From Mesorhizobium sp. M00.F.Ca.ET.216.01.1.1 (lineage in GTDB: Bacteria > Pseudomonadota > Alphaproteobacteria > Rhizobiales > Rhizobiaceae): DNA of 64,000 bases. The translations under genes were made by a program, and so were the position numbers. The notes below the pieces were generated by a model. The model was not told the origin of the DNA and ran no database searches. It worked only from the letters and a program-made list of their open reading frames with translations. Where the stretch lies: positions 206,239 through 270,238 of the forward strand of contig NZ_SADR02000001.1 of the NCBI RefSeq assembly GCF_004010325.2. Reading direction: 5' to 3'. Positions 10,698-52,013 of the stretch are shown one piece after another (position 1 is the stretch's first letter; each line of letters starts with the position of its first letter).

Positions 10698-12338
<1,641 letters not shown>

Positions 12339-12450: not shown

Positions 12451-12471
12451 TCGGCAGTATCTGTTAAAACG

Positions 12472-36153: not shown

Positions 36154-36164
36154 CCCGGCGCCGA

Positions 36165-36884: not shown

Positions 36885-36919
36885 ATTTTCGCTTTCGGGC
36901 CGGCCGGTGAGGACCGACC

Positions 36920-37474
36920 CTAAACCTGCATGATTTCAGCTTCCTTATCGGAAAGCAGGTGGTCGATGGTACTGATCATCTCGTCGGTAAGCTTCTGGAC
37001 TTGATCGGCGCGCTTGCGATGATCGTCCTCGCTGATGTCACCGTCCTTTTCCGCCTTCTTGAGAAAGTCCATGCCGTCACGGCGGACGTGGCGCACGGCG
37101 ACGCGGGCATTCTCGGCATAGCCGTGCGAGATCTTGACCAGCTCCTTGCGGCGCTGTTCGTTGAGCTCGGGCAGCGGAATCCTCAGGTTGGTGCCATCTA
37201 CAATCGGATTGAAGCCGAGGTTGGACTCGCGGATGGCGCGATCGACTGCGCCGACCATCGACTTGTCCCAAACCGAAACCGAAATCATGCGCGGCTCCGG
37301 GACCGACACGTTCGCCACTTGGTTGATCGGCATGGTCGTGCCATAGGCCTGGACCTGTATCGCATCGAGCAGGTTGCTGGAGGCGCGGCCGGTGCGCAGC
37401 GACGCCAGGTCGTGCCGGAATGCAGCGATCGCCCCATCCATGCGCCGCTTGAGATCGTCATGCTCACCACTCAT
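36920..37474 (-). CDS. frr: Ribosome recycling factor
   Basis: Releases ribosomes from mRNA after termination, with EF-G. Full-length family match: [71 protein letters not shown] and the C-terminal coiled coil. Two ATGs lie close (37480, 37474). GAGGAG touches the first but is six bases from the second, so 37474 is chosen. It follows pyrH as in most bacteria. Confidence 0.96.
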
Positions 37475-37562
37475 CGTCATCTCCTCGACCCGTTTGCCGG
37501 GTTCACTGTTGTCTTCGAGACTTGCTCCGAAACCGGCTCACCCTTCGGGGGCGAGTTCCGGA

Positions 37563-38285
37563 TCAATCGTCCGCGACGACCGTACAACGGCCGCCGCCCC
37601 GCAGGATATCGCCGAAACCACCCTTCTCGTGGATCGAATAGACGATTATCGGAATGTTATTTTCGCGCGCAAGTGCAATCGCGGCCGTATCCATGATCGA
37701 AAGGCCGCGTTTTATGACTTCGGCATGGGTGATGCGCTCGAAACGGGTCGCAGTCGGGTCCTTCTTGGGATCGGCCGAATAGACACCGTCGACTTGGGTG
37801 CCCTTGAACAGAGCGTCGGCGCCGATTTCCGCGGCGCGGAGCGCTGCCGCCGAATCGGTGGTGAAGAACGGGTTGCCGGTGCCGCCGGCGAAGATGACGA
37901 CCTTGCCCTGGTTCATATAGGCGGTCGCCTGGCGCTGGGAAAAGCTCTCGCAAAGCTCGGGCATGGCGATGGCCGACAGGACCACCGCGTCGACGCCGAT
38001 CTTGTTCAGCGAAGTGCGCAGCGCCAGTGAATTGATGACCGTGGCAAGCATGCCCATGTGGTCGCCGGTGACGCGGTCGCCGCCCTTGGATGCAACAGCC
38101 ACACCGCGAAAGATGTTACCGCCGCCGATGACGACGCCGACCTCGATGCCCAACGCACGGGCCTCGGCGATGTCGGCGGCGATGCGGTCGACGACAGACA
38201 CATCGATGCCGAAATGCTGTTCGCCCATCAGCGCTTCGCCCGACGCTTTCAGCAAGACACGTCGGTAGAGGGGCTTCACCGTCAT
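37563..38285 (-). CDS. pyrH: UMP kinase
   Basis: Phosphorylates UMP to UDP; amino-acid-kinase fold. Seen: YRRVLLKASGEALMG, VGVVIGGGNIFRG, DHMGMLATVINSLAL, and GTGNPFFTTDSAAALRAAEIGADALFKGTQVDGVY. Length is 240 residues. The frame continues to 38399 without family residues. In most bacteria tsf lies just upstream; here tsf is more than 8 kb away at 46792-47715, with inserted genes between. Confidence 0.96.
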   Translation of the reverse strand: MTVKPLYRRVLLKASGEALMGEQHFGIDVSVVDRIAADIAEARALGIEVGVVIGGGNIFRGVAVASKGGDRVTGDHMGMLATVINSLALRTSLNKIGVDAVVLSAIAMPELCESFSQRQATAYMNQGKVVIFAGGTGNPFFTTDSAAALRAAEIGADALFKGTQVDGVYSADPKKDPTATRFERITHAEVIKRGLSIMDTAAIALARENNIPIIVYSIHEKGGFGDILRGGGRCTVVADD

Positions 38286-38381
38286 CTGGTCCTCGTCATT
38301 GTGCGTGTAACGCGCTCGGGGTGGCAGCCTCGCGCCGGCGCCGAAGGAAACACTGGCGCGATGCCGCGTTCCGATACACGA

Positions 38382-38409
38382 AGGCCGCCGCGATGTCACG
38401 CGGCGGCCT
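38382..38409 (-). terminator. Strong hairpin after the aldo/keto reductase gene
   Basis: AGGCCGCCGCG / CGCGGCGGCCT, a perfect 11-base stem with a six-base loop, 34 bases beyond the reductase stop on the minus strand and upstream of pyrH. The sequence after it on the minus strand begins TCGTG, so the T run is poor. Termination is likely but not certain. Confidence 0.65.
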
Positions 38410-38442
38410 GCTGCAATTTCCGGCTATCGCCCTTGCGGCCGA

Positions 38443-39552
38443 TCAGCTGCCGTTGATGCTGACGGCTTCGCCCTCGACAAGCACGGGCGGCGCATACCCG
38501 GAAGGCTTGTCGCCGGTCACGGCCCCGCCGGTGACCCGGACCTGTATCTCGGAGCCGAAATACGAATGGGGAAATGGGACTGAAGGCTTGCTGACCGCAT
38601 CCAGCCTGGCGCGAAGATCGACGGGGATCGAGAAGTCCAGCGCCCCGAGATTGTCCTGCATCTGCCCCCGCTTGGTGGCTCCGAGGATCACGCTAGCGAT
38701 CCCTGGCTGCGTCGCCACCCAGTTCAAGGCGACCTGGGCCATGCTGCGGCCAAGTTCGGCGGCGACGCTTTCGAGTTCGGCCACGATTTCCCAGTTGCGT
38801 TGCGTGAATCTCTGGAAGCCCGGATGGGTGGTATTGCGGAAACCATCGAGGCGCCCGGCATTTCCGGCCTGCGTGGGACGATATTTGCCGCTGAGCAGCC
38901 CGCTGGCCAGCGGACTCCAAACCATGATGCCCGCCCCGTGACGTGTGCCGAAGGGTACAAATTCGTGCTCGATCGTGCGCTCGGCGAGCGAATATTCGAG
39001 CTGCAGGGCCGAAACCGGCTCGTAGCCGCGCAATTCGGCGATCGCCTGCACGCGGCCCGCATACCATCCCGGCACGTCGGACAGGCCGACATGACGCACC
39101 TTGCCTGCGCGGACGAGATCATCCAGCGTGCGCAGGACCTCTTCGGCCGGTGTCAGCCTGTCCCAGACATGCAAGAGATAGAGGTCGATATAGTCGGTGC
39201 CCAACCGGTTAAGCGAAGCCTCGACCGCGCGCATGATGTTCTTGCGCCCGTTGCCGCCCGCATTCGGATTGCCCGGCTCCGTATTCATGGTGAACTTGGT
39301 GGCGATCACCGCCTTGTCACGCAACCCGCGCTCGGCGACGAATTCCCCCAGCCAGGTCTCGCTGGTGCCGCCGGTATAAAGGTCTGCGGTATCGAAGAAA
39401 TTACCGCCTGCCTCGACATATGCGTCGAACATTGCGCGGGCAGTTTCCTTGTCCGCTCCCCAGCCCAATTCGGTACCGAAGGTCATCGTACCCAGCGCCA
39501 GCCGGCTTACCCTGAGGCCGCTGTTGCCGAGATTGTAATAATTCATTGTCAT
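38443..39552 (-). CDS. Aldo/keto reductase
   Basis: NADPH-dependent oxidoreductase of the AKR superfamily, in the group containing YajO/Tas-like proteins. The catalytic residues are in place: Asp and Tyr in NFFDTADLYTGGTSE, Lys in VIATKFTM and His in LYLLHVWDRLTP. NADP-binding VILGATKRGQMQDNLGAL lies near the end. Length is 369 residues, with a C-terminal extension (after FPHSYF) of about 35 residues. It is downstream of the NTF2-like gene on the same strand; the pair is divergent from the LysR regulator. The substrate is unknown. Confidence 0.9.
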   Translation of the reverse strand: MTMNYYNLGNSGLRVSRLALGTMTFGTELGWGADKETARAMFDAYVEAGGNFFDTADLYTGGTSETWLGEFVAERGLRDKAVIATKFTMNTEPGNPNAGGNGRKNIMRAVEASLNRLGTDYIDLYLLHVWDRLTPAEEVLRTLDDLVRAGKVRHVGLSDVPGWYAGRVQAIAELRGYEPVSALQLEYSLAERTIEHEFVPFGTRHGAGIMVWSPLASGLLSGKYRPTQAGNAGRLDGFRNTTHPGFQRFTQRNWEIVAELESVAAELGRSMAQVALNWVATQPGIASVILGATKRGQMQDNLGALDFSIPVDLRARLDAVSKPSVPFPHSYFGSEIQVRVTGGAVTGDKPSGYAPPVLVEGEAVSINGS

Positions 39553-39590
39553 GACATCGTCCTTTCCTGATCTTTGACGCTAGCTGGCGC

Positions 39591-40124
39591 TCAATGGCCT
39601 GGAGTGGCCTTGACCCATGGGTTGCCGCGCTCATGCGTCATGCGGAATGTGAAGCCGTCGACTTTCCAGCCCGCGCTGGAACGGATCAGATGGTGCTCGT
39701 AGGTGCCCCAGACTTCCCAGAGCGGGTCGCCATTGCCTTCCATCCGGTTCCAGGCGTAGCCGTTCGACAGAAGAGTAGCGCTGTCGCCGTCGATGGCGAC
39801 CTGGTGGTTGGTGCGCAGGTGCAGGCTTGTCTTGTTGCCCTTCAGGTTCGCCGCCCAGGTCCCGATCAGATCGTCCGAGGCAATGGTGGCTGAAGGCTGT
39901 CCGCTCAAGCTGCTGAAGTCGACCGTGACGCGGTCGGCGAAATAGCTACGGGCGAGTGGCCAATCCTGCGCGTCGACGGCGCGGTCGATGGCGTCGGCGA
40001 TGCGGATGACGGCGCGCTCATCGGCGAAAGCTTCCAGCCGGGAGAGAGCCGGCTCCGCCCCGCCGGCATCGAATGGCGCGAGGGCAACGCCCGCCGCGAG
40101 GGCAATGTGTTTCAATGCATTCAT
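39591..40124 (-). CDS. Secreted NTF2/SnoaL-like domain protein
   Basis: 177 residues with an apparent signal peptide (MNALKHIALAAGVALAPFDAGGA) and one NTF2-like cone-barrel domain: IADAIDRAVDAQDWPLARSYFADRVTVDFSS, then LHLRTNHQVAIDGDSATLLSNGYAWN and YEHHLIRSSAGWKVDGFTF. Such domains are found in ketosteroid-isomerase-like enzymes and in non-catalytic binding proteins, so no reaction is assigned. It is the first gene of a pair with the aldo/keto reductase and divergent from LysR. Confidence 0.82.
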   Translation of the reverse strand: MNALKHIALAAGVALAPFDAGGAEPALSRLEAFADERAVIRIADAIDRAVDAQDWPLARSYFADRVTVDFSSLSGQPSATIASDDLIGTWAANLKGNKTSLHLRTNHQVAIDGDSATLLSNGYAWNRMEGNGDPLWEVWGTYEHHLIRSSAGWKVDGFTFRMTHERGNPWVKATPGH

Positions 40125-40237
40125 GTCTCTTCTCCATTGCGCGCCTGCGCAACGGCAGGCTGGGAATACAAATGGACCCGTTTGCCCTCATCGATAAGAT
40201 TGCATTGTTTGCATGGACTATGCGATATTACTCATGA

Positions 40238-41164
40238 ATGGATCGCGACCTGCTCAGCCACCTACCGGTCGTCGTCGCCGTTGCCCGGCGCGGCGGTTTT
40301 GCGCTGGCCGCGGCCGAACTCGGCATGAGCCCATCGGCGGTCAGCCATGCGGTGCGACTGGTCGAGGAGCGGATCGGTCAACCCCTGTTCGCGCGCACGA
40401 CGCGCAGCGTCTCGCTGACGGAAGCCGGCAAGGCACTGGTGGAGACGGCGGCCCCTGCCCTGCAGGACATTGCCGAGCGGATGGACCGCATCCGCGGGAT
40501 CCGTGGCCGCCCGGCTGGCCTGCTCAGGATCAACGTCTCCCACATCGCGATCCCTATGGCGGTGACGCCTGTAGTGGCGGCAATGGCTGAACGCTATCCC
40601 GACGTGACTGTCGAGCTGTTCGCCGATCAGGGGCTCGTCGATATAGTCGGGGAAGGTTTCGACGCCGGCATCAGGCTGGGCGAAATGATCGCGCGGGACA
40701 TGGTCGCGGTCCGGCTTACGCCAGCGTTCAGCGTCATGATCGTCGCTTCACCCGCCTATATCGGGCGCAATGGCCGCCCTGCCAGCGTGGCCGATCTCGC
40801 AAACCACAACTGTATCGGCTACCGGCTCGTGCGCAGCGGAGCACTCTATCGCTGGGACCTACGGGAGGACGGCAAGGACGTCGTCGTCGAGACGGGCGGG
40901 ACGGCCATCGTCACGGATTCGCTCGCAGCAATCGATCTCGCGCTCGCCGGAGTGGGACTTGCCTATGTGTTCGAGCCGCTGGCGCGCGCCCATGTCGCCG
41001 CCGGCCGCCTCGTGCAGGTTCTGCCGCAATCGGCGATCGAGGAGCCCGGACTGTTCCTCTATTTCCCCAGACGGTCCGCGATGGCGCCGAAGCTTCGGGC
41101 CTTCATCGACACCGCACAAGAAATCGGCCGGGCATCCTCGCGGACACCCGGCCGAGCTGCCTGA
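40238..41164 (+). CDS. LysR family transcriptional regulator
   Basis: 308 residues. The N-terminal winged helix-turn-helix reads LPVVVAVARRGGFALAAAELGMSPSAVSHAVRLVEERIGQPLFARTTRSVSLTEAG, of the group regulating oxidoreductases. The C-terminal effector domain is full length. It is divergent from the NTF2-like/reductase pair across 113 bases, so those genes are the probable targets. Its last 84 bases are repeated, diverged and frameshifted, at 46633-46715. Confidence 0.92.
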   Translation: MDRDLLSHLPVVVAVARRGGFALAAAELGMSPSAVSHAVRLVEERIGQPLFARTTRSVSLTEAGKALVETAAPALQDIAERMDRIRGIRGRPAGLLRINVSHIAIPMAVTPVVAAMAERYPDVTVELFADQGLVDIVGEGFDAGIRLGEMIARDMVAVRLTPAFSVMIVASPAYIGRNGRPASVADLANHNCIGYRLVRSGALYRWDLREDGKDVVVETGGTAIVTDSLAAIDLALAGVGLAYVFEPLARAHVAAGRLVQVLPQSAIEEPGLFLYFPRRSAMAPKLRAFIDTAQEIGRASSRTPGRAA

Positions 41165-41353
41165 GCAGAGAAGCCCCGTTGCGGGCTATTTCTTGACCGC
41201 CGCGGCGACTTCCGCCGCGAAGTCGGTCTCTTCCTTCTCGATGCCCACGACCATCTTCTCGATGATCGCTTCCGGCTTGCCGGACTGGCGCGCCTGGTCG
41301 GCGAAGATCGCCTTCTCGTGCTCGACCGCAGCAGGGTCGAGTTGTTCGGTGGT
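41081..41353. repeat. Left copy of the lysR-3' / tsf-3' junction duplication
   Basis: This stretch spans the last 84 bases of the LysR gene, the spacer, and a 3' fragment of tsf on the minus strand. It is a diverged direct repeat of 46633-47115. It differs from that copy by lacking a palindromic element and by a 156-base in-frame deletion inside the tsf part. The two copies bracket the acyl-transfer cassette. Confidence 0.9.
41186..41353 (-). pseudogene. Truncated 3' fragment of tsf
   Basis: On the minus strand this reads the end of EF-Ts: [18 protein letters not shown], then [15 protein letters not shown] joined directly to [20 protein letters not shown]-stop. Relative to the complete tsf at 46792-47715 it has lost everything upstream and an internal block of 52 codons ([10 protein letters not shown] through YLRFALGE), with one substituted Val at the join. 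It has no start or promoter and cannot encode EF-Ts. Confidence 0.88.
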
Positions 41354-41458
41354 CCGCCGCTCCGGCGCGTCGGCTTGACGTTGGACATGCTACATCGCCT
41401 GCGCTGCGGTGACGGCGATGGCCGCCGGTGCCGCCTATCCTCTCGCTCTCGTAGCCTT
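41347..41458 (+). repeat. Partial duplicate of the 5' end of the SGNH-like gene
   Basis: From CGGTGGTC at 41347 to about 41458 the sequence repeats 41823-41935, the membrane-helix segment of the next gene, with a few substitutions and one missing base. The join with the tsf fragment falls in CGGTGGT, which is present in both parent sequences (tsf GTTCGGTGGT and the gene TGCGGTGGTC), so a seven-base microhomology marks the junction. Confidence 0.85.
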
Positions 41459-41753
41459 CTATTAGAGCCTGCTGCGACAGTCGCGGCCTGCTCCCGGCAA
41501 CCAGGGATTTGCACGCGGAGGACCGCCCCGTGACCGTGCACGACATCGAATTTCAAGTTAGCCGGTGACAAAAAAGAATGCAGCAGGCTAGCCGCCTCAA
41601 CGCCGTATGCGCGTCGTCCGCTGACGCCGGAACACGCGCGTGTTTGATAAGGAACTAGAGATCCGTATTGGGGAAAAACCTGTCGTCACGATCAATTCGT
41701 CAACGGGTACCTTCCATGGGTGATGACCACGTACCGATCTATTCCGGCAGGTA
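41459..41753. other. Unassigned junction sequence before the acyl-transfer cassette
   Basis: About 295 bases with no protein-like frame. AGCCTGCTGC (41466-41475) and GCAGCAGGCT (41580-41589) form a ten-base inverted repeat enclosing 104 bases. That could be the ends of a small non-autonomous element, but no target-site duplication is evident. The promoter of the cassette must lie here or further left; candidate hexamers are not convincing. Confidence 0.5.
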
Positions 41754-42803
41754 GTGACGAAACATTGTCGCGCCCTTCGGTTTGAGTCGCCTGGCATGCT
41801 GATGAGACAGCTTTCGATTCTGCGGTGGTCGGCCGCTCAGGCGCGTCGGCTTGACAGTTGGACATGCTACATCGCCTGCGCTGCGGTGACGGCGATGGCC
41901 GCCGGTGCCGCCTATCTTCTCGCTCTCGTGGCCTTAGAGAGGGGCGGTTGGCTACCACCACCAGCGTTCACCAACAACCTCTGTGCCGATGCGAAGCTCG
42001 CTTTTCTGCGCGATCACCCACCGAAAGCGCCGACGGAGCTCATCCTCGGATCGTCGGCCGCCTGGCGTGGTATCGCGAGCGAGGAAATCGTCCGACGGCA
42101 TCCGACCGCCAGGCCGCTCAACGGTAGCTTCTGCGGGCTGCAGGTCAATCAGACCGCGTTCGTCGCCGACTATCTGCTGCGCCGGTACCCGAGTGTGCAG
42201 AGCGTTCTACTCCTGCTCAGCCCGATCGACATGGACACGTGCAGCGGCACCGATGCGCGCTTGTTCGACAGGCGCGACGTCGATGCCTATTTGGCAAGCA
42301 AAGGTCCGGTCTGGAGCTATTACTTCCGCTATTTCGATCCTGTCTCGCTGGTCCGCAACGCGAGCCTCGTCAAGGCCGCGCGCGAAGACAGGCTCCCCTT
42401 CTATTCGCTGATCTTCACGCCCTACGGCGACGGTCCGCAGACCACCGATGCCAGCCGCAAGCTCGACATCGGACTCTTCGACACCATCGATCCGGCCTGC
42501 GTGCCGTCGCTGCGGAGACTGGCGCGGACGATCGCCGATGGTGGGCGGCGGCTGACCGTGGCGTCCCTCCCGCTGCTATCGGCCGGGGTCGAGCGCTCCG
42601 ACCCGACGGGTGCGATCCACGACCACATGGTGCGAGAGGTCAAGAGCGCCGTCGTCGGAACGAACGCCGTTTTCTGGGACGGCGAGCGCTTCGCGCAGGT
42701 GGACCCCGGCGACTTCGTCGATCCCATCCATCTGCGCTGGACGGGTGCTCGACGCTTCACGAGACAGCTCGTCGCAGCCACCGGCTTCGGTGCTGTGAAG
42801 TGA
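41754..42803 (+). CDS. Membrane-anchored SGNH-hydrolase-like protein, probable partner of the MBOAT acyltransferase
   Basis: About 349 residues: one helix near the N terminus ([26 protein letters not shown]), then a periplasmic domain with SGNH-like blocks ELILGSSAAWRGI (G99-S100-S101, block I) and DPIHLRWTGARRF (D323 and H326, Ser-Asp-His type block V). AlgJ/AlgX, PatB and DltD are proteins of this kind that complete O-acyl transfer with an MBOAT partner. MBOAT follows after 16 bases. The start is uncertain: GTG at 41754 or ATG at 41796/41802. The family is not recognised exactly; the role is inferred from motif and context. Confidence 0.7.
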   Translation: MTKHCRALRFESPGMLMRQLSILRWSAAQARRLDSWTCYIACAAVTAMAAGAAYLLALVALERGGWLPPPAFTNNLCADAKLAFLRDHPPKAPTELILGSSAAWRGIASEEIVRRHPTARPLNGSFCGLQVNQTAFVADYLLRRYPSVQSVLLLLSPIDMDTCSGTDARLFDRRDVDAYLASKGPVWSYYFRYFDPVSLVRNASLVKAAREDRLPFYSLIFTPYGDGPQTTDASRKLDIGLFDTIDPACVPSLRRLARTIADGGRRLTVASLPLLSAGVERSDPTGAIHDHMVREVKSAVVGTNAVFWDGERFAQVDPGDFVDPIHLRWTGARRFTRQLVAATGFGAVK

Positions 42804-42819
42804 TGGCGGAATAACCGAC

Positions 42820-44382
42820 ATGCTGTTCAACTCCGCCATCTTCCTTCTTGGCCTGTTGCCGATTGCTCTAGCCGGGTTTTTTGCCCTTGGGCTCGCGGGT
42901 CGGCGCAAGCTCGCGATCGTCTGGCTTACGCTTATCTCGCTAGTCTTCTATGGTTGGTGGAACGTGGCTTACGTGCCGCTGCTGCTGGCCTCCATTGTCG
43001 TCAACTATGCGGTCGGCGCCATACTCACGCGGCGGAAGGTGAAGAGCCTCCTGATCGCCGGCATCACTCTCAACCTGCTTCTCCTCGGCTACTACAAATA
43101 TGCCGGTTTTCTTGTGGTCACGGTCAGCGACGTGCTCGATCTGGGCCTCCCCGTTCCGACGATCCTCCTTCCCTTGGCGATCTCGTTTTTCACGTTTCAA
43201 CAGATTGCGTATCTTGCCGATGCGTACGAGGACGTTGCGGCGGAGCGTAGCTTTGCCAATTACTGCCTGTTCATCACTTTCTTTCCGCACCTGATTGCCG
43301 GGCCCATCACGCATCACAAGGAGATGATGCCGCAGTTCGACGACGCGCGGATTTTCAAGCCGCAACCGCAGATGTTGGCACTCGGCGGCACGGTCTTTGT
43401 CGTCGGCCTCTTCAAGAAGGTGATCATCGCCGACACCATCGCCTTGTGGGCAAACCCGGTATTCGCCGCCGCCGGCAAGGGCGACGCATTGCAGATGTTC
43501 GAGGCCTGGGGCGGCGCGCTCTCGTATATGCTGCAGATCTATTTCGACTTTTCCGGATACTCGGACATGGCGATCGGCCTCGGTATGCTGTTCGGCATCC
43601 GTTTGCCGTTCAACTTCAATTCGCCGCTCAAGGCGCGCAACATCATCGACTTCTGGTCGCGTTGGCACATGACCTTGACTCGATTCGTGACCGCCTACAT
43701 CTACAATCCCTTGAGTTTGAGCCTGACACGCCGCTGGCTCGCGAGCGGCACTCCGGGCCTGCGGCGCGGCAAGACCAGCCCTGCTGCCTTCGCCGTTCTT
43801 CTCGCCCTGCCGACGATCCTGGCGATGGTGATCATTGGCTTGTGGCATGGCGCCGGCTGGCAGTTCGCCGCCTTCGGCCTAGTGCACGGGCTCTTTCTCA
43901 CCATCAACCATGGCTGGCGGATGCTCAAGATGCGCTGGCAGTGGCGCGTCGACAGCGACCGGCCGATCCACTTCGTCCCGTCGGTTCTGATGACGATGGG
44001 TTGCGTCATGGTCGGGCTCGTGTTCTTCCGTTCTCCGGACCTCGCGACGGCGTTTCACCTCTTGCGCTGCATGGCCGGCTTCAACGGGCTCGGCTTCCAC
44101 TCCTCGGAACTCCTGGATTGGGACACGGTGCAGCTACAGCTCCTGCTGTTGACGATCGTCTGGTTCCTGCCGAACGTCCAGGAATGGTTGCGCCGCTACG
44201 AGACCGGTCTCGGACAGGTAGACCCGGCGACGTGGCTCGATCGCAAGTTGCGCCTGGACAGTCGGATGTTTGCCTTGCAGCCGACGCCGGCGTTTGCCGT
44301 CGTCACCGGCCTGATCGGTTTTCTGGCGGTCACGCGGACGCTGTCGGCCGCACCCACCATGTTCCTCTATTTTCAATTCTAA
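42820..44382 (+). CDS. MBOAT family O-acyltransferase (AlgI/DltB-like)
   Basis: 520-residue polytopic protein with about ten or more helices. It shows MBOAT features: LPLAISFFTFQQIAYLADAY, FFPHLIAGPITHHKEMMPQF, LQIYFDFSGYSDMAIGLGMLFGIRLPFNFNSP, DFWSRWHMTLTRF, and the catalytic-His segment IIGLWHGAGWQF (H343) with a second His at 356 (LVHGLF). AlgI and DltB relatives move acyl groups across the inner membrane onto alginate, peptidoglycan or teichoic acid. The neighbouring ACP suggests that the donor is an acyl-ACP, as DltB uses a carrier-protein thioester. The acceptor is unknown. Confidence 0.9.
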   Translation: MLFNSAIFLLGLLPIALAGFFALGLAGRRKLAIVWLTLISLVFYGWWNVAYVPLLLASIVVNYAVGAILTRRKVKSLLIAGITLNLLLLGYYKYAGFLVVTVSDVLDLGLPVPTILLPLAISFFTFQQIAYLADAYEDVAAERSFANYCLFITFFPHLIAGPITHHKEMMPQFDDARIFKPQPQMLALGGTVFVVGLFKKVIIADTIALWANPVFAAAGKGDALQMFEAWGGALSYMLQIYFDFSGYSDMAIGLGMLFGIRLPFNFNSPLKARNIIDFWSRWHMTLTRFVTAYIYNPLSLSLTRRWLASGTPGLRRGKTSPAAFAVLLALPTILAMVIIGLWHGAGWQFAAFGLVHGLFLTINHGWRMLKMRWQWRVDSDRPIHFVPSVLMTMGCVMVGLVFFRSPDLATAFHLLRCMAGFNGLGFHSSELLDWDTVQLQLLLLTIVWFLPNVQEWLRRYETGLGQVDPATWLDRKLRLDSRMFALQPTPAFAVVTGLIGFLAVTRTLSAAPTMFLYFQF

Positions 44383-44397
44383 GGGGCTATCGACACG

Positions 44398-44652
44398 GTG
44401 GACGAGATCTATGAGCGGTTGGAGCCGATCTTCCGGGAACTCTTCGACGACGACGACCTGATCGTCACCCCGCAGCACACGGCGAAGGATGTCGAAGGAT
44501 GGGACAGTATGATGAACGTGCAGCTCATGCTGAGCATCGAGCGGGCGTTCAAGGTGCACTTCTCGGCCAGCCAGATCGCCTCCTTGGGCAGTGTTGGTGA
44601 GCTCGCTGCGCTGATCCAACGCATGCTTGATCAAGCTGCACCCGGGAGCTGA
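44398..44652 (+). CDS. Acyl carrier protein of the cassette
   Basis: 84 residues with an acidic four-helix ACP pattern. The phosphopantetheine Ser37 is in the motif VEGWDSMMNVQLMLSIE, close to the consensus D-S-L/M. FkbH-associated ACPs commonly have this GWDS form. It starts with GTG at 44398, after AAGGGG. It lies 15 bases after the MBOAT gene and two bases before the FkbH-like gene, so it is surely in one operon with them. It is distinct from the housekeeping fatty-acid ACP, which is not in this window. Confidence 0.9.
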   Translation: MDEIYERLEPIFRELFDDDDLIVTPQHTAKDVEGWDSMMNVQLMLSIERAFKVHFSASQIASLGSVGELAALIQRMLDQAAPGS

Positions 44653-44654
44653 AC

Positions 44655-46559
44655 GTGAGTTGCGACCTTTTTCTAGACCTCGCTTGGCTGCCGAGGCCAC
44701 CAGCCGAGTTCAAGGACATGTGCCGTCGCCTCACGGGTAGCGCGTCCGGTGCTGCGATCCAGCTCCTCGCGTCGTTCGCCCTCGATGCGACCCAGTCGAC
44801 GCGCCTGGCCCGCATCATCCGTGCGCTGCAGGAGCCGGGCCGGCCGCTGCCACCGTTGACGCCGATGAAGCTCGGCGTCCTCGCCAACGGCACGATCGAT
44901 CTCGTGATACCTGCCCTCGTCGCCGGTGCCGCCCGGCACGGGATCCTGCTGGAGTGTGTCACCGCCGATTACGGGCTGTTCGCCCAGGAAGCGCTCGACC
45001 CCCGTTCCAGGGTCAGGACGGCACGGTGCGATGCCGTGCTGCTCGCCCTCGACTATCGCGCCTTTCCCTTCGCGCCCTCGCCTGGGGATGCAACGGCCGC
45101 GGCCACCAATGTCGAGGAGGCGATCGCCTTCCTAAACCGGATCCGCGAGGGAATCGCCGCCTGCGGGGCGGTCTGCATCCTGCAGACCTTGGCACCGCCG
45201 GCCGAGGCGCTGTTCGGCAGCATGGATCGCTCCCTGCCCGGCGCGCTGCGCCATCTCATCGAAGGGTTCAACCGCCGTCTTACAGCAGGGCTCGAAGGCA
45301 CGGCCGACGTGCTGCTCGACGTCGCCGCCATCGCCGAAACCGTCGGTCTCGCCCACTGGCATTCGCCGAGCCAATGGAATCTCGCGAAGTTGCCCTTCGC
45401 CGACAGTTGCGTTCCGCTCTATGCCGACCATGTCGGACGGCTCTTGGGGGCGATGCGGGGCAAGGCCCGCCGCTGCCTCGTCCTCGACCTCGACAATACG
45501 CTCTGGGGCGGCGTCATCGGCGACGACGGCCTGCACGGGATCATGCTCGCCGAGGGCGACGCCGTAGGCGAGGCGTATCGAAGCGTGCAGCGCCTGGCAC
45601 TCGCCTTGCGCGAGCGCGGCATCGTACTCGCCATATCGTCCAAGAATACCGAGGAGGTGGCGAGGCGCGTCTTTCGCGAGCACCCGGAAATGCTGATCCG
45701 TGAGGAGCAGATCACCGTCTTCCAGGCGAATTGGGACGACAAGGCGACGAACATCAAGGCGATTGCCGGCGCCCTCTCGCTCGGGCTCGACTCGATGGTG
45801 TTCCTGGATGACAATCCGGTCGAGCGGGGGCTAGTGCGGCAGATCCTGCCCCAAGTGGCGGTGCCCGAACTGCCTCATGATCCGGCCTTGTACGCACGCA
45901 CGCTGGCGGCCGCGGGATATTTCGAAGCAACGGCCTTCTCGGACGAAGACCGCAGGCGCGTCGCGTACTATGAGCGCAATGCGCGTCGTGTGGCGCTGCA
46001 GGAGCGGGCGGGCGATATCGATTCCTATCTCACCTCGCTCGATATGGAGATCACCTTCAGACCGTTCGATCTCACCGGCCGGTCGCGGATAGCCCAGTTG
46101 ATCAACAAGTCCAATCAGTTCAATCTGACCACCCGGCGCTATACGGAGGCCGACGTGGCGGCGGTCGCGCGCGATCCGACATGCGCGACGCTCCAGGTCC
46201 GTCTCGCCGACAGGTTCGGCGACAACGGCATGATCAGCGTGATCATTTGCCGTACGCTGCCGGGCTCGACCTGGGAGATCGATACCTGGTTGATGAGCTG
46301 CCGGGTGCTGGGACGACGGGTCGAGCAAATGGTGCTGCGCGAGATCCTGCAGCAAGCGCGCGAGGCCGGGATCAGTAAGGTCGTCGGTGTCTACCGGCCG
46401 ACGGACCGCAACGCCATGGTGCGCGACCACTATGCGAAGCTGGGCTTCACGCAGATCGAGGACGACGGCACTAGCCGGTGGATGCTCGATACGGCGACGG
46501 AGATCGAGCCTGCGCCGATGCGGGTTCATCGGACGTCGCCGGCAGACCTCCATGCTTGA
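44655..46559 (+). CDS. FkbH-like HAD-IIIC phosphatase/acyltransferase
   Basis: 634 residues: an N-terminal SGNH-like region (about 70-260), an FkbH-type HAD domain with motif I VLDLDNTLWGGVIGDDG (D278 and D280) and DSMVFLDDNPVERGLVRQ, and a C-terminal GNAT-like region (about 480-620; RLADRFGDNGMISVIIC). FkbH enzymes load glycerate from 1,3-bisphosphoglycerate onto an ACP and dephosphorylate it to glyceryl-ACP. The GTG start at 44655 has GGGAG six bases upstream. With the ACP just before it, the likely product is glyceryl-ACP or a related hydroxyacyl-ACP. No polyketide synthase or dehydrogenase adjoins. Confidence 0.9.
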   Translation: MSCDLFLDLAWLPRPPAEFKDMCRRLTGSASGAAIQLLASFALDATQSTRLARIIRALQEPGRPLPPLTPMKLGVLANGTIDLVIPALVAGAARHGILLECVTADYGLFAQEALDPRSRVRTARCDAVLLALDYRAFPFAPSPGDATAAATNVEEAIAFLNRIREGIAACGAVCILQTLAPPAEALFGSMDRSLPGALRHLIEGFNRRLTAGLEGTADVLLDVAAIAETVGLAHWHSPSQWNLAKLPFADSCVPLYADHVGRLLGAMRGKARRCLVLDLDNTLWGGVIGDDGLHGIMLAEGDAVGEAYRSVQRLALALRERGIVLAISSKNTEEVARRVFREHPEMLIREEQITVFQANWDDKATNIKAIAGALSLGLDSMVFLDDNPVERGLVRQILPQVAVPELPHDPALYARTLAAAGYFEATAFSDEDRRRVAYYERNARRVALQERAGDIDSYLTSLDMEITFRPFDLTGRSRIAQLINKSNQFNLTTRRYTEADVAAVARDPTCATLQVRLADRFGDNGMISVIICRTLPGSTWEIDTWLMSCRVLGRRVEQMVLREILQQAREAGISKVVGVYRPTDRNAMVRDHYAKLGFTQIEDDGTSRWMLDTATEIEPAPMRVHRTSPADLHA

Positions 46560-46632
46560 AGGGCATTGCACTCACCATGGTGCCCAAAGGCTGCGATGAG
46601 GACGATTTCAAATTCTCGATGGAGTGGCGGCC

Positions 46633-46715
46633 ATGGCGCCGAAGCTCAGGGCCTTCATCGACACCGCACAAGAAATCGGCCGGGCATCTTGCGGACACCC
46701 GGCCGAGCTGCCTGA
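46633..46715 (+). pseudogene. Remnant of the lysR 3' end
   Basis: Reads MAPKLRAFIDTAQEIGRAS, identical to the C terminus of the LysR protein ending at 41164. A one-base deletion (GCATCTTGCGG against GCATCCTCGCGG) then shifts the frame. No upstream part of lysR is present: homology begins abruptly at ATGGCGCCGAAGCT. It marks the right border of the inserted cassette. Confidence 0.85.
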
Positions 46716-46739
46716 GCAGAGAAGCCCGTTTTGTTTTTT

Positions 46740-46782
46740 GCAATTCCCAGGGAAAACCGCGGCGCACTTTTCCTGGAATTGC
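46740..46782. repeat. Palindromic repeat element beside the tsf stop codon
   Basis: GCAATTCCCAGGGAAAA pairs, with two bulged bases, with TTTTCCTGGAATTGC around an 11-base loop (CCGCGGCGCAC). I recall stems ending in GGAATTGC with inner TTTTCC as frequent intergenic repeats in rhizobial genomes; this cannot be counted here. The corresponding site in the left copy (41171-41186) lacks it. Confidence 0.7.
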
Positions 46783-46791
46783 CCCAGGGGG

Positions 46792-47715
46792 CTATTTCTT
46801 GACTGCGGCGGCGACTTCCGCCGCGAAGTCGCTCTCTTCCTTCTCGATACCCTCGCCGAGCGCGAAGCGCAGGTAGGCCGATATCTTGGCCGGCGCGCCG
46901 ATCTCCTTCTCGGCATCCTTCAGTGCCTTCTCGACGGTGATGTCAGGATTGAGCACGAACGCCTGCTTGAGCAGCACGACCTCTTCGTAGAATTTGCGCA
47001 GACGGCCCTCGACCATCTTCTCGATGATCGCTTCCGGCTTGCCGGACTGACGCGCCTGGTCGGCGAAGATCGCCTTCTCGCGCTCGACCGCAGCTGGGTC
47101 GAGCTGTTCGGTGGTTAGCGCCATTGGGTTGGTGGCGGCGACATGCATGGCGACCTGACGGGCGAAGGCGTTAGCGACTTGCGCATTGCCGGTGGTTTCG
47201 ATCGCAACCAGCACGCCGAGCTTGCCGAGACCGTCGGCAACGGCATTGTGGACGTAGGTGGCGACAGCGCCGTGCTCGACGGTGAGCTTGGCCGAGCGGC
47301 GGAAGCCCAGATTCTCGCCGATGGTGCCGACGGCGTCCTTGATGGTCTCGGCGACCGACTTGTCAGAACCCGGATACGGGGCCGCAGCGACGATCTCGGT
47401 CTTGCCGCCATAGGCGAGTGCGACCTTGGCGACGTTGGCGACGATCTCCTGAAAGGCAGCGTTGCGGGCGACAAAGTCGGTCTCGGAATTGACCTCGACG
47501 ATCGCTGCCTCGCGGACGCCGGAATCGACGCCGATCAGGCCCTCGGCCGCAGTGCGGCCGGCCTTCTTGTCGGCCTTGGAGATGCCCTTCTTGCGCAGCC
47601 AGTCGACGGCCTCTTCCATGTTGCCGTTGGTCTCGTTCAACGCCGCCTTGCAATCCATCATGCCCGCGCCGGTCAAGTCGCGGAGTTCTTTGACCTGTGC
47701 AGCCGAAATGCTCAT
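46792..47715 (-). CDS. tsf: Elongation factor Ts
   Basis: Nucleotide exchange factor for EF-Tu. Seen: the N-terminal UBA-like segment [37 protein letters not shown], the core [15 protein letters not shown], and the C-terminal coiled-coil/dimer region. Length is 307 residues, complete. The ATG at 47715 has AGAGG upstream. It follows rpsB in the standard order, but pyrH is displaced by the inserted segment. Its 3' end is the right-hand repeat of the duplication. Confidence 0.96.
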
Positions 47716-47810
47716 TGTCGCCTCTTTGTTTAAATGCACCGACGCACCATCGATTCTCGATGATGCGCCCGGCGTCGGTAGCGCTTAGCGCGCCAAGATA
47801 TTGGAAAGAT

Positions 47811-47831
47811 GAAGGCCGACTGTCGGCCTTC
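47811..47831. terminator. Intercistronic hairpin between rpsB and tsf
   Basis: GAAGGCCGAC-T-GTCGGCCTTC, a perfect ten-base stem located five bases after the rpsB stop codon on the minus strand. It lacks a T run. In many bacteria a hairpin here partly terminates or stabilises the rpsB transcript, setting the S2 to EF-Ts ratio; that role is inferred. Confidence 0.65.
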
Positions 47832-47835
47832 GTTA

Positions 47836-48618
47836 TTATGCTTCCGGGGTCTCGGCCGCCGGGGTCGGATCGAGCACCGGCTCGACTGGAGCCTCGACCG
47901 CAGCGCCGATGTCGACGCCGAGCGCGCCCTGCTGGCGAGCGATGCCGTCGATCGCAGCCTTGGCGATCAGATCGCAATAGAGCTGGATGGCGCGGGCCGC
48001 GTCGTCATTGCCCGGGATCGGGAAGTCGATCTTGTCCGGGTCGCAGTTGGAATCGATGATGGCGACGACCGGGATGCCAAGACGCTTGGCCTCGAGGATG
48101 GCGATCGCTTCCTTGTTGGTGTCGATGACGAACATCAGGTCGGGCGTCGAGCCCATGTCCTTGATGCCACCCAGTGCCTTGTCGAGCTTCTCACGCTCGC
48201 GATCGAGGTTGAGGCGCTCCTTCTTGGTGAGGCCCTGGGCCTCGCCGGCCAGCATCTCGTCGAGTTTGCGCAGGCGCTGGATGGAATTCGAGATCGTCTT
48301 CCAGTTGGTCAGCATGCCGCCGAGCCAGCGGGAGTTGACATAGTACTGAGCCGAACGCTGTGCGGCATCGGCGACGATGTCGGACGCCTGGCGCTTGGTG
48401 CCGACGAACAGCACGCGGCCGCCCTTGGCGACGGTGTCGGAAACCTGCTTCAGCGCCTGGTGCAGCAGCGGCACCGTTTGGCTGAGGTCGATGATGTGGA
48501 TGTTGTTGCGGGCGCCATAGATGTAAGGCGCCATCTTCGGGTTCCAGCGGTGGGTCTGGTGGCCGAAGTGAATGCCAGCTTCCAAAAGCTGGCGCATGCT
48601 GAAATCAGGCAGAGCCAT
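47836..48618 (-). CDS. rpsB: 30S ribosomal protein S2
   Basis: Small-subunit protein. Family match through the full length: [63 protein letters not shown] and [25 protein letters not shown]. Length is 260 residues, with an acidic Pro/Ala tail as in other rhizobia. The ATG at 48618 is set by the family start. Promoter-like hexamers lie about 130 bases upstream. Confidence 0.97.
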
Positions 48619-48747
48619 TCTTAGTTCCTTTCCGGTTAGCCTCCACGGACACAGGCATTTTTGGACTCTTGTCCTCAAACGCCACCGGAGGTTTCAGCCG
48701 GATTTCTCCCGGGCAGACACCAAAGTCCGTGTGTGGAATGAGCGCGC

Positions 48748-48775
48748 ATATAGAGGGGATGCGCGACAAACGCAA
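48748..48775 (-). promoter_or_regulatory. Probable promoter of rpsB-tsf
   Basis: On the minus strand TTGCGT (48775-48770) and CTATAT (48753-48748) are separated by 16 bases, close to the sigma-70 type promoter of Alphaproteobacteria. It would give a leader of about 120 bases before rpsB, long enough for S2 autoregulation. Confidence 0.5.
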
Positions 48776-48795
48776 GCGCTGTGGCGGCTCGTCGC

Positions 48796-49407
48796 TCAGC
48801 GTGCGGCGATCAGCGCACCGGTGCCGATCATCGCGCCGCCGGCAAACCTGTTCATCAGGCGCCTGCGCTTCGGCGTCCTGAACCAGCCCGAGGCCCGTCC
48901 GGAAAGTGCTGCATAGACGCCCATGGTGACGATATTGACGCTGATCACCACCGCAACCACGAGCAGCCCGTCGGCGAAGGTCATCGTGTCGAGGTCGAGG
49001 ATCAGCGGCATGATGGAGGCGTGGAACAGGATTGCCTTGGGGTTGCCCAGCGCGATCGAGGCGCCCAGCAAAAATGACCGGGATAGCCTCGGCTGCACCG
49101 CCTGCAGCCCATTGGATTGCGCGGCAGCCGACCGCCACATCCTGATGCCGAGATAGACCAGATATGCGGCACCTGCATATTTCAGGGCGAGAAAAACCCA
49201 TTCGAAGGTCTGTGCCAACGCGACGAGACCGAGCAGCGCCAAGGTGACCAGCACCGCGTCGCCGGCGGCGACGCCGACACCGGCGATGAAGGCGCGAACG
49301 AAGCCGCGCGAGACGCCGTTGGTGATGACCGCAAACATCGCCGGGCCGGGCGTGGCGGCGGCAAGCGTGATCGCGGCGCAGTAGGCCAGAAATGCCGTCA
49401 ATGTCAT
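48796..49407 (-). CDS. LysE family amino-acid exporter
   Basis: 203 residues with six predicted helices. LysE/RhtB features: N-terminal FLAYCAAITLAAATPGPAMFAVITNGVSRG (the TPGP motif), GVAAGDAVLVTLALLGL, and LKYAGAAYLVYLGIRMWRS. The ATG at 49407 overlaps the stop of the DUF4031 gene by four bases, so the two are coupled. The exported substrate is not predictable. Its 3' end faces the rpsB promoter region. Confidence 0.9.
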   Translation of the reverse strand: MTLTAFLAYCAAITLAAATPGPAMFAVITNGVSRGFVRAFIAGVGVAAGDAVLVTLALLGLVALAQTFEWVFLALKYAGAAYLVYLGIRMWRSAAAQSNGLQAVQPRLSRSFLLGASIALGNPKAILFHASIMPLILDLDTMTFADGLLVVAVVISVNIVTMGVYAALSGRASGWFRTPKRRRLMNRFAGGAMIGTGALIAAR

Positions 49408-49682
49408 GGCCGTATCTTCCCTTTCGGTACCCGGACGCGCCGGAAAATCGCGACGATCTCCTCGCGGCTGCATTCGATCGCGCCGAGCCGCACGGCGCGG
49501 TCGCGTTCGAAGCCGGTTATGTCATAGTGCGGCGCCGATGTCTTGGGCGGTCCCTGATAGGACGAGCGCTTGATGCCGAGTTGTGCTGCAAAACGATGCA
49601 ACTCGTCGGCGTCGTCGGCCATCAGATGACACCAGCGGTGGCCGACCCATTTCCAGATCGCCGCGTCGACATAGACCGCCAT
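49404..49682 (-). CDS. DUF4031 domain protein
   Basis: 92 residues: MAVYVDAAIWKWVGHRWCHLMADDADELHRFAAQLGI...SAPHYDITGFERDRAVRLGAIE. The MAVYVD start, CHL-x-AD and HYD motifs are those of DUF4031, a short family of unknown function often found in Actinobacteria and Proteobacteria. The start ATG at 49682 is part of the conserved motif. It overlaps the LysE-type gene downstream. Confidence 0.85.
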   Translation of the reverse strand: MAVYVDAAIWKWVGHRWCHLMADDADELHRFAAQLGIKRSSYQGPPKTSAPHYDITGFERDRAVRLGAIECSREEIVAIFRRVRVPKGKIRP

Positions 49683-49766
49683 GAAGCTTGCAGCACTCCT
49701 TCACCCATCTTGCGCCGATGAACGAGGCGCAGCCGGCTACGTGGCCGGGAGCCGAGGTCCCCGGGG

Positions 49767-51065
49767 TCAGCGATGATAGAAGGGATTCGGATAGAAAATG
49801 AAGCCGCCCCCGGCCTCGAGCTCGGCAACGGTTCTGGTCACAGCCTCCTGCATGCGAAATTGCAATGCAGCAAGCGCGTCGTCGATCGAGCCTTCATAGG
49901 CATGCAACCCCAGCGGTTCCGGCACGCGGATATGAGCGCGGCGCGGCCCGGTCGACTGCGGCACGAAGCGGTTGATGGTGTCGCGCAGCGTGCCCTTGCA
50001 GTAATCGTTGCGGATACGCTTCAAATGCTCGGCGATCTCCTCCTGCGTGATGCGCGCATTGGCCCAGGCCCACGGCCCGAGGCGCAGAAGACGCTGGATC
50101 GTGTTCGCCAGCGTCCGGACCTGCTTCTGGCTTTCGGCGTCGCCGACGTTTTCCCGCAGCCAGCGGCGCGACCGGCGCAGAAGCTCGGTGATGTCGATGG
50201 CGTCGCAATCGACCGAAACACGCTCCCCCAGGCGCCGCTTCAATTCGAGCAACAGGTCCTTCTGGCGCGCCGCATACAAAGCACACTCGCTAGGTACCAA
50301 TCCGTAGGCAGCCTCGTCGCGTGACAGCAGCGTTGCATAGATGTGATGGACACGTTCTGGCAGTGAAGCGGCGATGTTGCGTTCGATCTTCAGGTTTTTC
50401 TCGACATAGGTGCATTCCTTTGCCAGCGCCGGCTCGACGTTCCCGGTGAACGCGAGCTTCCAGACAACCGGTGCGACCCAGGCCTTGAAATCCCGATCCG
50501 TCGCGCGGCCGCGCTTCAGCGCCTCAAGCCCCATCTCGACGGCACCCGGGAGCAGCGGACCGACAACATTGGCATGCCAGCCGACGCCACCTTCGGGATG
50601 CAGGAGCACACCGTGCCCTTTGAGCGCCCAGATGACCGAATGTTCCTTTGCCCCCGCGCTGTTGCCGGGAATTTGGGCGATCAGGTTGTTGGCCAGCCAG
50701 AATTTCTGCATCATCCGGCCAAGGCCGTTGACGACGCCATGCGTGGCCCAGGAGGCGGCCAGCGGGCTCACCTGCGAGACGATCTCCTTGTCGATCATCC
50801 AGTCGGTAAAGAACTCCGGATGGTTGGGCGTGATGAAAGTTGCCTGCCCCTCACCACAACAGGCCTTCAGCCGTTGCCGGTCGTCGTCGGGAAAGTCGAT
50901 ATGGCGGACATTGGCGACGCCGCGCAATCCGGCCAGGCGGTTGAACGGCAACAGGTCGCGAAACCCGGGAATGCCGCGCAGCATGACGATCCGGTTGACG
51001 AATGTCATGGCCTTGATCAGCGCCGGCTTGGGCCGCGGCGCCACGAACACATCGATCCTGCTCAA
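49767..51065 (-). CDS. PlsC-like acyltransferase family protein
   Basis: 432 residues. The acyltransferase motifs are TPNHPEFFTDW (the H-x4-5-D catalytic motif, here NHPEFFTD) and LLHPEGGVGW (the P-E-G glycerophosphate-site motif) about 80 residues later, as in PlsC-type 1-acyl-glycerol-3-phosphate acyltransferases. The C-terminal half (about 240-430) is unlike PlsC and is unassigned. The start is a TTG at 51065 with GGGGGGAG four bases before it. It stands alone between the DUF4031 gene and eipB. The substrate is not predictable. Confidence 0.75.
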   Translation of the reverse strand: MSRIDVFVAPRPKPALIKAMTFVNRIVMLRGIPGFRDLLPFNRLAGLRGVANVRHIDFPDDDRQRLKACCGEGQATFITPNHPEFFTDWMIDKEIVSQVSPLAASWATHGVVNGLGRMMQKFWLANNLIAQIPGNSAGAKEHSVIWALKGHGVLLHPEGGVGWHANVVGPLLPGAVEMGLEALKRGRATDRDFKAWVAPVVWKLAFTGNVEPALAKECTYVEKNLKIERNIAASLPERVHHIYATLLSRDEAAYGLVPSECALYAARQKDLLLELKRRLGERVSVDCDAIDITELLRRSRRWLRENVGDAESQKQVRTLANTIQRLLRLGPWAWANARITQEEIAEHLKRIRNDYCKGTLRDTINRFVPQSTGPRRAHIRVPEPLGLHAYEGSIDDALAALQFRMQEAVTRTVAELEAGGGFIFYPNPFYHR

Positions 51066-51185
51066 CCTGCTCCCCCCAAGCCGAATGGCGCCGAGGCAAG
51101 TTGAGAGGCAATTGCGGCGTGTTCAAGTCCGCGTATGACCCCGATGGGAATCGATCGCGGTTAACTCAAACCGAACTCGGGATCA

Positions 51186-52013
51186 CTATTTCGACGGGCA
51201 AGGCTTCGACTGGTCGAACAACGACAGATTGACCAGCTTGCCGGTCATCGAGAAGTCGCCATAGTCCATCATTAGGTCGCGGGTGATGCCGTTCTCATGC
51301 AGTTTGAAGCTGATCCGGTATTCCGGCACCTCCTCGCCGTTTTTGTCGGTATCGTCGAAATAGGCGATGTCGACCGGCCAGTACTTGTCGGTCGCCAGTT
51401 TTGCCAGCGCCGGTGCCTCCGGGTCGGACGTGTCGGCATCGCTCTTCTTGCCGACGACGACGGTGGTGGTCATCACCTTGTTGGCGTCTTCCGAGCCGTC
51501 GAAGAGATTGGTTTCGTAAAAGCTCTCGCCCTTTTCGGCCTTGCCGATCAGCTCGGCCAGATGCTGGGTCGGGAACTGGGTAGCGGCCAGTTCGAGGCTG
51601 TTCTTCTCGGGCTTGTCGATGTCGACCTTGAGCTTGTTGGCCTCCTTCGTCGCGGTGCCCTTGACCTCCTTGTCGAGGTTCTGGTCGACGAAGGATTTCG
51701 TCACGAACGAGAAGGTCTTGCCTTCGGCGTCCTCGAAAGTGGTCGTCTGCTGATCGGTCAGCCTGGTGTTGTCATTGGTAACGATCTGGGTGACGAAGCG
51801 GAATTTCACCGTGTAGCCTTCGCAGGGCGAGCCGTTGAACTCGTAGACCATGCGGCCGGAGATGCCTGTTATACCGGAGCGATCCGACGCCTTGTCCAGG
51901 GTAAGGTCATAGACGGCGCGATGCGCCTGCAGCGCCGGCACGGCAAAAGCCGGCGCGATCGAGAAGACCGCTGGCAGCAGGGCGGCGTAGAATGCAGGGC
52001 GCGTAGCGCGCAT
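51186..52013 (-). CDS. eipB: EipB family envelope integrity protein (DUF1849)
   Basis: 275 residues with a signal peptide (to about AFA, residue 24). DUF1849 pattern: LQAHRAVYDLTLDKASDRSGITGISGRMVYEFNGSPCEGYTVKFRFVTQI, later QFPTQHLAELIGKAEKG, and a C-terminal SKPCPSK. Brucella EipB is a periplasmic beta-spiral protein needed for envelope integrity, with a conserved disulfide. The two Cys here, C64 and C272, fit that bond. It is divergent from ridA with about 140 bases between. Confidence 0.88.
   Translation of the reverse strand: MRATRPAFYAALLPAVFSIAPAFAVPALQAHRAVYDLTLDKASDRSGITGISGRMVYEFNGSPCEGYTVKFRFVTQIVTNDNTRLTDQQTTTFEDAEGKTFSFVTKSFVDQNLDKEVKGTATKEANKLKVDIDKPEKNSLELAATQFPTQHLAELIGKAEKGESFYETNLFDGSEDANKVMTTTVVVGKKSDADTSDPEAPALAKLATDKYWPVDIAYFDDTDKNGEEVPEYRISFKLHENGITRDLMMDYGDFSMTGKLVNLSLFDQSKPCPSK

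Follow-up and report, generated by a model that had tools for sequence, protein, structure and literature searches.

We analyzed a stretch of 64,000 nucleotides (nt) from Mesorhizobium sp. M00.F.Ca.ET.216.01.1.1 (contig NZ_SADR02000001.1, positions 206,239-270,238, assembly GCF_004010325.2), hereafter called the window, which contains a cassette of four genes for an SGNH-type protein, an MBOAT membrane acyltransferase, a stand-alone acyl carrier protein (ACP), and an FkbH-type protein. The cassette probably encodes a Dlt/Pat-like MBOAT-SGNH pathway in which FkbH and the ACP take the place of DltA and DltC, and through which a glyceryl group, or a group derived from it, would be transferred to a surface glycan. 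Each of the four parts is known; their joint use is a prediction, for which we present the gene content, the conserved residues, two predicted folds, the recurrence of the gene set in other genomes, and the linkage to a CDP-deoxysugar locus.

Composition of the four-gene cassette

The four genes are intact, in-frame open reading frames (ORFs) on the + strand separated by gaps of 16, 15, and 2 nt, and the tight operon given in a preliminary description of the window proved right to the base. The first gene (41754-42803, + strand, GTG start) encodes a membrane-anchored protein of 349 amino acids with a single hydrophobic segment (residues 43-61) and no Pfam match. A comparison of its sequence profile with the PDB gave DltD as the best matches at E values of only 0.2-0.8, and a comparison of folds was therefore needed. 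The predicted structure (mean pLDDT 85) consisted of an N-terminal helix and an SGNH-type domain, for which DltD chains were the best Foldseek matches (E 3e-5). A second aligner (VIA) gave Z scores of 16.3 for TesA and 15.3 for PatB, with similar values for many SGNH esterases. The model indicates an SGNH-type fold that is placed with DltD and PatB, and a transferase is not separable from an esterase by the predicted fold alone. In an alignment of the window protein with nine chosen relatives, from which the cut-off copy of locus L125 was excluded, G99, S100, S101, D323, and H326 were invariant in all 10 sequences. The candidate Ser (S100/S101), Asp (D323), and His (H326) lie in the G-S-S and D-x-x-H blocks from which an SGNH-like protein had previously been proposed, and the predicted fold bears out that assignment.

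The second gene (42820-44382, + strand, ATG start) encodes a DltB-like MBOAT of 520 amino acids, which matched PF03062 with an E value of 4e-19. The score against the DltB family TIGR04091 (E 2.8e-50) was 171.7 bits, below the cut-off of 375. The profile of the protein matched two sequences in the PDB at E≤0.01, both of which were DltB (E 2e-41), and DltB was also the first match of the predicted structure (E 8e-12, TMt 0.73; pLDDT 80, low at residues 462-487 and 511-520). H343, H356, F515, Y517, and F520 were invariant in 15 of 15 chosen rows of the alignment. The last three belong to the C-terminal sequence FLYFQF, which fits the published acyl-shuttle motif FXYXXF. According to excerpts of PMC12148441, PatA auto-acetylates the Tyr of its own C-terminal FXYXXF and DltX bears the same motif, which reads FLYFGF in an excerpt of PMC11035591. 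Among the FkbH-linked MBOATs of the named loci described below, 36 of 46 ended in FXYXXF.

The third gene (44398-44652, + strand, GTG start) encodes a stand-alone ACP of 84 amino acids (PF00550, E 1e-6). Its phosphopantetheine attachment site, S37 in the motif WDS, was invariant in 10 of 10 chosen sequences, and the genome contains one AcpS-type match. The fourth gene (44655-46559, + strand, GTG start) encodes an FkbH-type protein of 634 amino acids, which consists of an N-terminal part, a HAD-IIIC part (DLDNT, with D278 and D280), and a C-terminal part with the Cys C549 (SCRVLGR). The protein scored 312.2 bits against TIGR01686, above the cut-off of 146.65, and matched the Pfam family FkbH_N weakly (E 0.026). 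The nearest sequence in the PDB was BF1531 (3slr), which spans the N-terminal and HAD parts only. D278, D280, and T282 of the HAD motif DxDxT and C549 of S-C-R were invariant in 22 of 22 chosen sequences, namely the FkbH of the window and 21 others that share 30-58% identity with it. The conserved C-terminal Cys of FkbH proteins probably holds or transfers the glyceryl group.

Profile scans found no polyketide synthase (PKS) or non-ribosomal peptide synthetase (NRPS) in the cassette, and scans limited to the operon and its two immediate neighbours, lysR and tsf, found no PKS, dehydrogenase, O-methyltransferase, or FabH-like enzyme. The roles that the preliminary description had assigned by family held wherever they were tested: the ACP and FkbH keep their attachment and catalytic residues, and the MBOAT keeps its catalytic His and shuttle motif. 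The donor and the acceptor that it had named are still proposals. Between positions 41100 and 46800, no promoter-like site was found (0.7 expected), and six terminator-like sites were found against 3.7 expected.

Recurrence, linkage to a CDP-deoxysugar locus, and origin

We scanned named genomes for FkbH and obtained at least 589 relatives among 593 stretches, the best 80 of which were kept as loci. Within 6 kb of FkbH, an ACP gene was present in 75 of the 80 loci, an MBOAT gene in 46, and the SGNH family of the window, which completes the four-gene set, in 10. The values were similar for the loci with at least 3.5 kb of sequence on both sides of FkbH (ACP, 57/60; MBOAT, 37/60). FkbH regions from a class-wide sample gave 19/20 for ACP and 16/20 for MBOAT; these 20 were the best-scoring of 41 FkbH matches outside the window's own genome, less one second match of genome G336, and one of them was a contig of 4.2 kb. 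MBOATs of this kind (E 1e-60) were borne by 116 of the 385 genomes in the class-wide sample, from which simple arithmetic puts the chance proximity of such an MBOAT within approximately 14 kb on the order of 1% or less. Conversely, 30 loci selected by their MBOAT, one of which was the window, contained 10 that were linked to FkbH, including the top five. The co-occurrence suggested by the preliminary description was not rare in regard to the ACP and the MBOAT; the full set was narrower.

The ten four-gene loci were found in Ensifer (L053), Bradyrhizobium (L077), Pseudoroseomonas (L117), Roseomonas (L122), Pseudomonas (L123), Rhodospirillaceae (L119, L121, and L125, with the SGNH gene of L125 cut off), and Stutzerimonas (L126 and L127), and the order of the genes varied among them. 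The independent annotation of plasmid pSC52_6 places an acyl carrier protein, a HAD-IIIC family phosphatase, an MBOAT, and a hypothetical protein of 358 amino acids in a row. On the same plasmid (L172, 1709-12846), an ACP-FkbH-MBOAT-hypothetical-VOC-acyltransferase cluster stands beside a sulfotransferase and a sulfate-activation gene and is possibly a locus for a sulfated, acylated glycan. On pSymB of Sinorhizobium meliloti 1021 (L171, 6585-11781), the genes for an MBOAT, a 409-amino acid ORF, an ACP, and FkbH lie in a row; FkbH is split over two frames in this strain and unbroken in the matches from several others of the species.

The cassette of Ensifer sp. MPMI2T was the closest relative of the window cassette, with 87.5% nucleotide identity over 4748 nt. 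In Ensifer, the cassette borders on a row of genes for, in order, a membrane protein of 538 amino acids, rfbF, rfbG, an rfbH-like gene of the aminotransferase family, a C-methyltransferase, an epimerase, a GT2 glycosyltransferase, and GtrA. Counterparts of all eight genes (59-86% identity), collinear and with unchanged orientation, are located on contig C669 of the window genome (G000), where the CDP-deoxysugar locus (L183, stretch 84001-104000 of the contig) occupies positions 6359-16898 of the stretch and also includes a gene of the UDP-glucose dehydrogenase type. In both genomes, rfbF and rfbG scored above the curated cut-offs and rfbH below its cut-off. The methyltransferase is of the NDP-sugar C-methyltransferase kind. 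The counterpart of the membrane protein on C669 (534 amino acids) belongs to no Pfam family and has 11 hydrophobic segments; it is probably a GT-C glycosyltransferase. The G+C content of the sugar locus was 59.6%, versus 62.5% for the window. No match to rfbG at E≤1e-100 was found in 40 other genomes of the genus. A stretch of C669 lying 57 kb from the sugar locus was matched in each of 40 other genomes of the genus, which indicates that the contig is native to the genome; contamination as the source of the contig was ruled out by the same matches.

Among the sampled members of the genus, the species is distinguished by both the cassette and the sugar locus, which lie side by side in Ensifer. 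This adjacency in Ensifer, together with the absence of both elsewhere in the sampled genus, points to the product of the sugar locus as the acceptor. In Roseomonas (L122), whose MBOAT neighbours those of Ensifer and the window in the tree described below, a gene for a glucose-1-phosphate cytidylyltransferase, scoring above its cut-off, lies approximately 1.3 kb from the cassette. The surface-glycan acceptor gains support from the linked CDP-sugar locus, and the glycan common to the window species and Ensifer sp. MPMI2T is a concrete candidate.

The cassette looks, from its sequence context, horizontally acquired and inserted between lysR and tsf, given the distribution of FkbH in the genus and the duplicated lysR-tsf junction. 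No match to FkbH at E≤1e-3 was found in 36 other genomes of the genus (0/36), and the MBOAT gave one distant match (36%) in 40. The empty site is represented by at least 27 of 40 other genomes of the genus, in which approximately 150 nt separate the lysR match from the tsf match. In the window, the host gene for a lysR-type regulator is full-length on the left flank (40238-41164, + strand), and the host gene tsf, which encodes EF-Ts, is intact on the right flank (46792-47739, - strand). The junction of the two occurs twice, a feature absent from the preliminary description. The left copy (41078-41353, unstranded) consists of the lysR 3' end and a tsf remnant, namely the 3' end of that gene less approximately 150 nt, and its pieces are 93-95% identical to pieces of 46630-47115; in the right copy (46630-46727, unstranded), a remnant of the lysR 3' end adjoins the intact tsf. 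A partial extra copy (122 nt) of the start of the SGNH gene (41337-41458, + strand), 93% identical to 41814-41935, is fused to the left tsf remnant. Regions 41078-41458 and 46630-47115 together have the appearance of a nested duplication left by the insertion. No near-identical copy spanning 80% of the cassette was found on plasmids. The region 36000-52000 contains no tRNA gene and thus no insertion site of the tRNA type.

Proposed pathway and alternative readings

We infer the donor, the direction of transfer, the acceptor, and the product as follows. In line with its family, FkbH would use 1,3-bisphosphoglycerate, an intermediate of glycolysis, as its source of a glyceryl group, and its HAD domain would remove the remaining phosphate. 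Glyceryl from 1,3-bisphosphoglycerate is expected to have the D configuration. The group would be passed, probably via the conserved C549, to the holo-ACP. The MBOAT would accept the glyceryl-ACP at the cytoplasmic face of the membrane, in the same manner as DltB accepts D-Ala-DltC, and, judging from its motif and His residues, would move the acyl group to its own Y517 in FLYFQF on the periplasmic side. The Ser of the SGNH protein would then take over the acyl group and esterify a sugar hydroxyl of a surface glycan, as its predicted fold and its Ser, Asp, and His suggest. The likeliest acceptor would be the glycan built by the linked CDP-deoxysugar locus. The cassette itself would have entered the species horizontally, between lysR and tsf, as its distribution and the duplication suggest.

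The following observations weigh against this pathway. No MBOAT was present within 6 kb of FkbH in 34 of the 80 loci (23/60 where at least 3.5 kb flanks FkbH on each side), and FkbH-ACP therefore also serves other ends. A C-terminal FXYXXF is missing from ten of the 46 FkbH-linked MBOATs, some of them distant: four miss only the first F, that of L101 is truncated at the contig end, and five have a different terminus without being truncated (L096 and the MBOATs of 402-404 amino acids in L073, L104, L111, and L124). The sugar-locus context was found in only two four-gene members among those scanned; next to L117 and L119, the single genes that were scanned are not genes for polysaccharides, and L122 is flanked by an unrelated oxidoreductase on the side opposite to the cytidylyltransferase gene. 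In the window genome, the sugar locus and the cassette do not share a contig, and a single transfer may account for both gains. Another acyl group could serve as the donor, and a GMC oxidoreductase gene lies approximately 0.8 kb from FkbH in Ensifer. Finally, genome G293 (L173, G293:C5) contains the SGNH family and an MBOAT in a stretch of 14.6 kb that has neither an FkbH nor an ACP gene, and the genome as a whole gave no match to FkbH; the SGNH-MBOAT pair can therefore apparently use another donor.

In L073, L104, L111, and L124, the shuttle motif might be supplied by a separate DltX-like small protein.

The pair in G293 would suit an ordinary O-acetylation by an MBOAT and an SGNH protein fed with acetyl-CoA, in which the genes for FkbH and the ACP are hitch-hikers or belong to another pathway. 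We consider this improbable, since FkbH and the ACP stay beside this MBOAT clade, in several gene orders, in Ensifer, Bradyrhizobium, Roseomonas, Pseudomonas/Stutzerimonas, and Rhodospirillaceae. We also built a tree of 81 MBOAT rows from the FkbH-neighbouring MBOATs and the 30 best MBOATs of the class-wide sample, with near-copies merged; L152, L153, L155, and L161, whose FkbH lies at or beyond the edge of the stretch, were labelled FkbH-linked by hand. Linkage to FkbH required 4 changes on the tree, compared with 18.1 after shuffling (none of 500 shuffles needed as few), and the window MBOAT fell in a branch of 23 rows (SH-aLRT 99) that are all FkbH-linked, in a tree that was built largely from FkbH-picked loci, which favours FkbH-linked rows and is a further point against our reading. 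Several long branches make the deep placements of the tree unsure.

The same MBOAT-SGNH machine might instead move another small hydroxyacyl group, namely a methylated, oxidised, or dehydrated/reduced derivative formed by enzymes encoded elsewhere, a variant that we regard as rather unlikely. Related FkbH-ACP loci contain a methyltransferase (L082, L084, L094), a MaoC dehydratase and/or an SDR (L067, L064, L103), or glycosyltransferases (L106, L078), and the cargo may therefore vary. The Ensifer GMC oxidoreductase agrees with such a derivative, and FK520-type pathways oxidise and methylate glyceryl-ACP according to an excerpt of PMC7489565. In contrast, the window operon, with lysR and tsf as its neighbours, contains no methyltransferase, MaoC, or SDR gene, and the methyltransferase of the sugar locus belongs to the sugar-modifying kind noted above.

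The methyltransferase genes beside FkbH-ACP in L082 (9963-10910), L084 (6811-7728), and L094 (9881-10825) would fit an O-methylglyceryl group, such as the dimethylglyceryl of Campylobacter.

The acceptor could also be a lipid or a small secreted metabolite instead of a polymer. FkbH and an MBOAT occur together in the proposed pathway of suomilide, a small peptide with a hexose that the MBOAT is proposed to acylate (excerpt of PMC13122637). We consider such an acceptor very improbable for the window cassette, which contains no PKS or NRPS; with its membrane anchor, the SGNH partner points to a glycan assembled in the periplasm, as does the linked GtrA/CDP-sugar locus.

Returning to the glyceryl transfer to a surface glycan, we tentatively propose, and hold as possible but open to doubt, a broader form of the reading. 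A widespread MBOAT-SGNH pathway dependent on a carrier protein, a "glyceryl-Dlt", would channel the high-energy phosphate of glycolysis, 1,3-bisphosphoglycerate, towards the formation of glyceryl esters on surface glycans; in the window species and Ensifer it would act on a CDP-derived, probably C-methyl-branched deoxysugar exported via GtrA, GT2, and GT-C; and related FkbH-ACP modules would be a candidate origin of other glycerate-type substituents (gellan, welan, and dimethylglyceryl-pseudaminic acid).

Comparison with known systems

In the open-licence literature, no article among the matches listed connects FkbH with an MBOAT in the context of a surface glycan, which is weak evidence of absence given that scope. 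The two with both terms, PMC10143770 and PMC13122637, concern cyanobacterial peptides. Nothing was found in the same literature for HAD-IIIC with MBOAT or for gellan with a glyceryl-transferase or MBOAT, and excerpts of PMC3068675 returned by the searched terms do not mention FkbH. A direct link to gellan was set aside, the glycerate of gellan being L and that expected from 1,3-bisphosphoglycerate D, and was kept only as a lead. The L-glycerate of gellan and the glyceric acid of welan are described in an excerpt of PMC9104527.

The FkbH-ACP modules that supply glyceryl units to polyketides (methoxymalonyl-ACP, tetronates) differ from the cassette, whose operon contains no PKS, acyl-ACP dehydrogenases, O-methyltransferase, or FabH-like enzyme and whose output is coupled to an MBOAT. 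The dimethylglyceryl-pseudaminic acid of Campylobacter jejuni is a sugar made in the cytoplasm. Its flagellar glycan locus (cj1295, cj1302) resembles the cassette in that cj1302, a gene with an fkbH domain, stands in a surface-glycan locus, and differs in that no MBOAT-SGNH pair is named in the excerpts of PMC7099621. The same excerpts report that cj1302 is a pseudogene in strain 12664, in which the dimethylglyceryl glycan is absent, and that strain 12661, which is said to miss cj1301, also lacks the glycan; the link between cj1302 and the glycan is therefore a correlation. The gene cj1302 is the nearest precedent for FkbH in connection with a surface glycan.

The PatA/PatB system of Gram-negatives, which performs O-acetylation, similarly combines an MBOAT that carries its own C-terminal FXYXXF with a separate periplasmic SGNH protein. 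It differs in the donor: PatA uses acetyl-CoA without a carrier protein, as described in part of PMC12148441, whereas the operon of the window includes an ACP and FkbH. The Dlt system for the D-alanylation of teichoic acid (DltA-DltC-DltB-DltX-DltD) shares with the cassette an MBOAT fed by a carrier protein, a Tyr shuttle motif, and an SGNH transferase, and DltB and DltD were the best Foldseek matches of the MBOAT and SGNH models, respectively. In the cassette, FkbH stands in place of the ligase DltA, the motif is fused to the MBOAT instead of residing on a separate DltX, and the host is an alphaproteobacterium. Neither DltA nor a separate DltX was found in the operon of four ORFs, in a list of ORFs of at least 60 amino acids and with the shuttle motif on the MBOAT itself. 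With neither DltA nor DltX and with an MBOAT score short of the DltB cut-off, the cassette is not Dlt proper.

According to excerpts of PMC12148441, Dlt is the only MBOAT-SGNH pathway with a carrier protein, and the others evidently draw on acyl-CoA. If our reading is true, the cassette is a counter-example to this rule, with an MBOAT that carries its own shuttle motif, is fed by an ACP, and is charged by FkbH straight from glycolysis, and the source of glycerate-type groups on bacterial glycans becomes directly testable.

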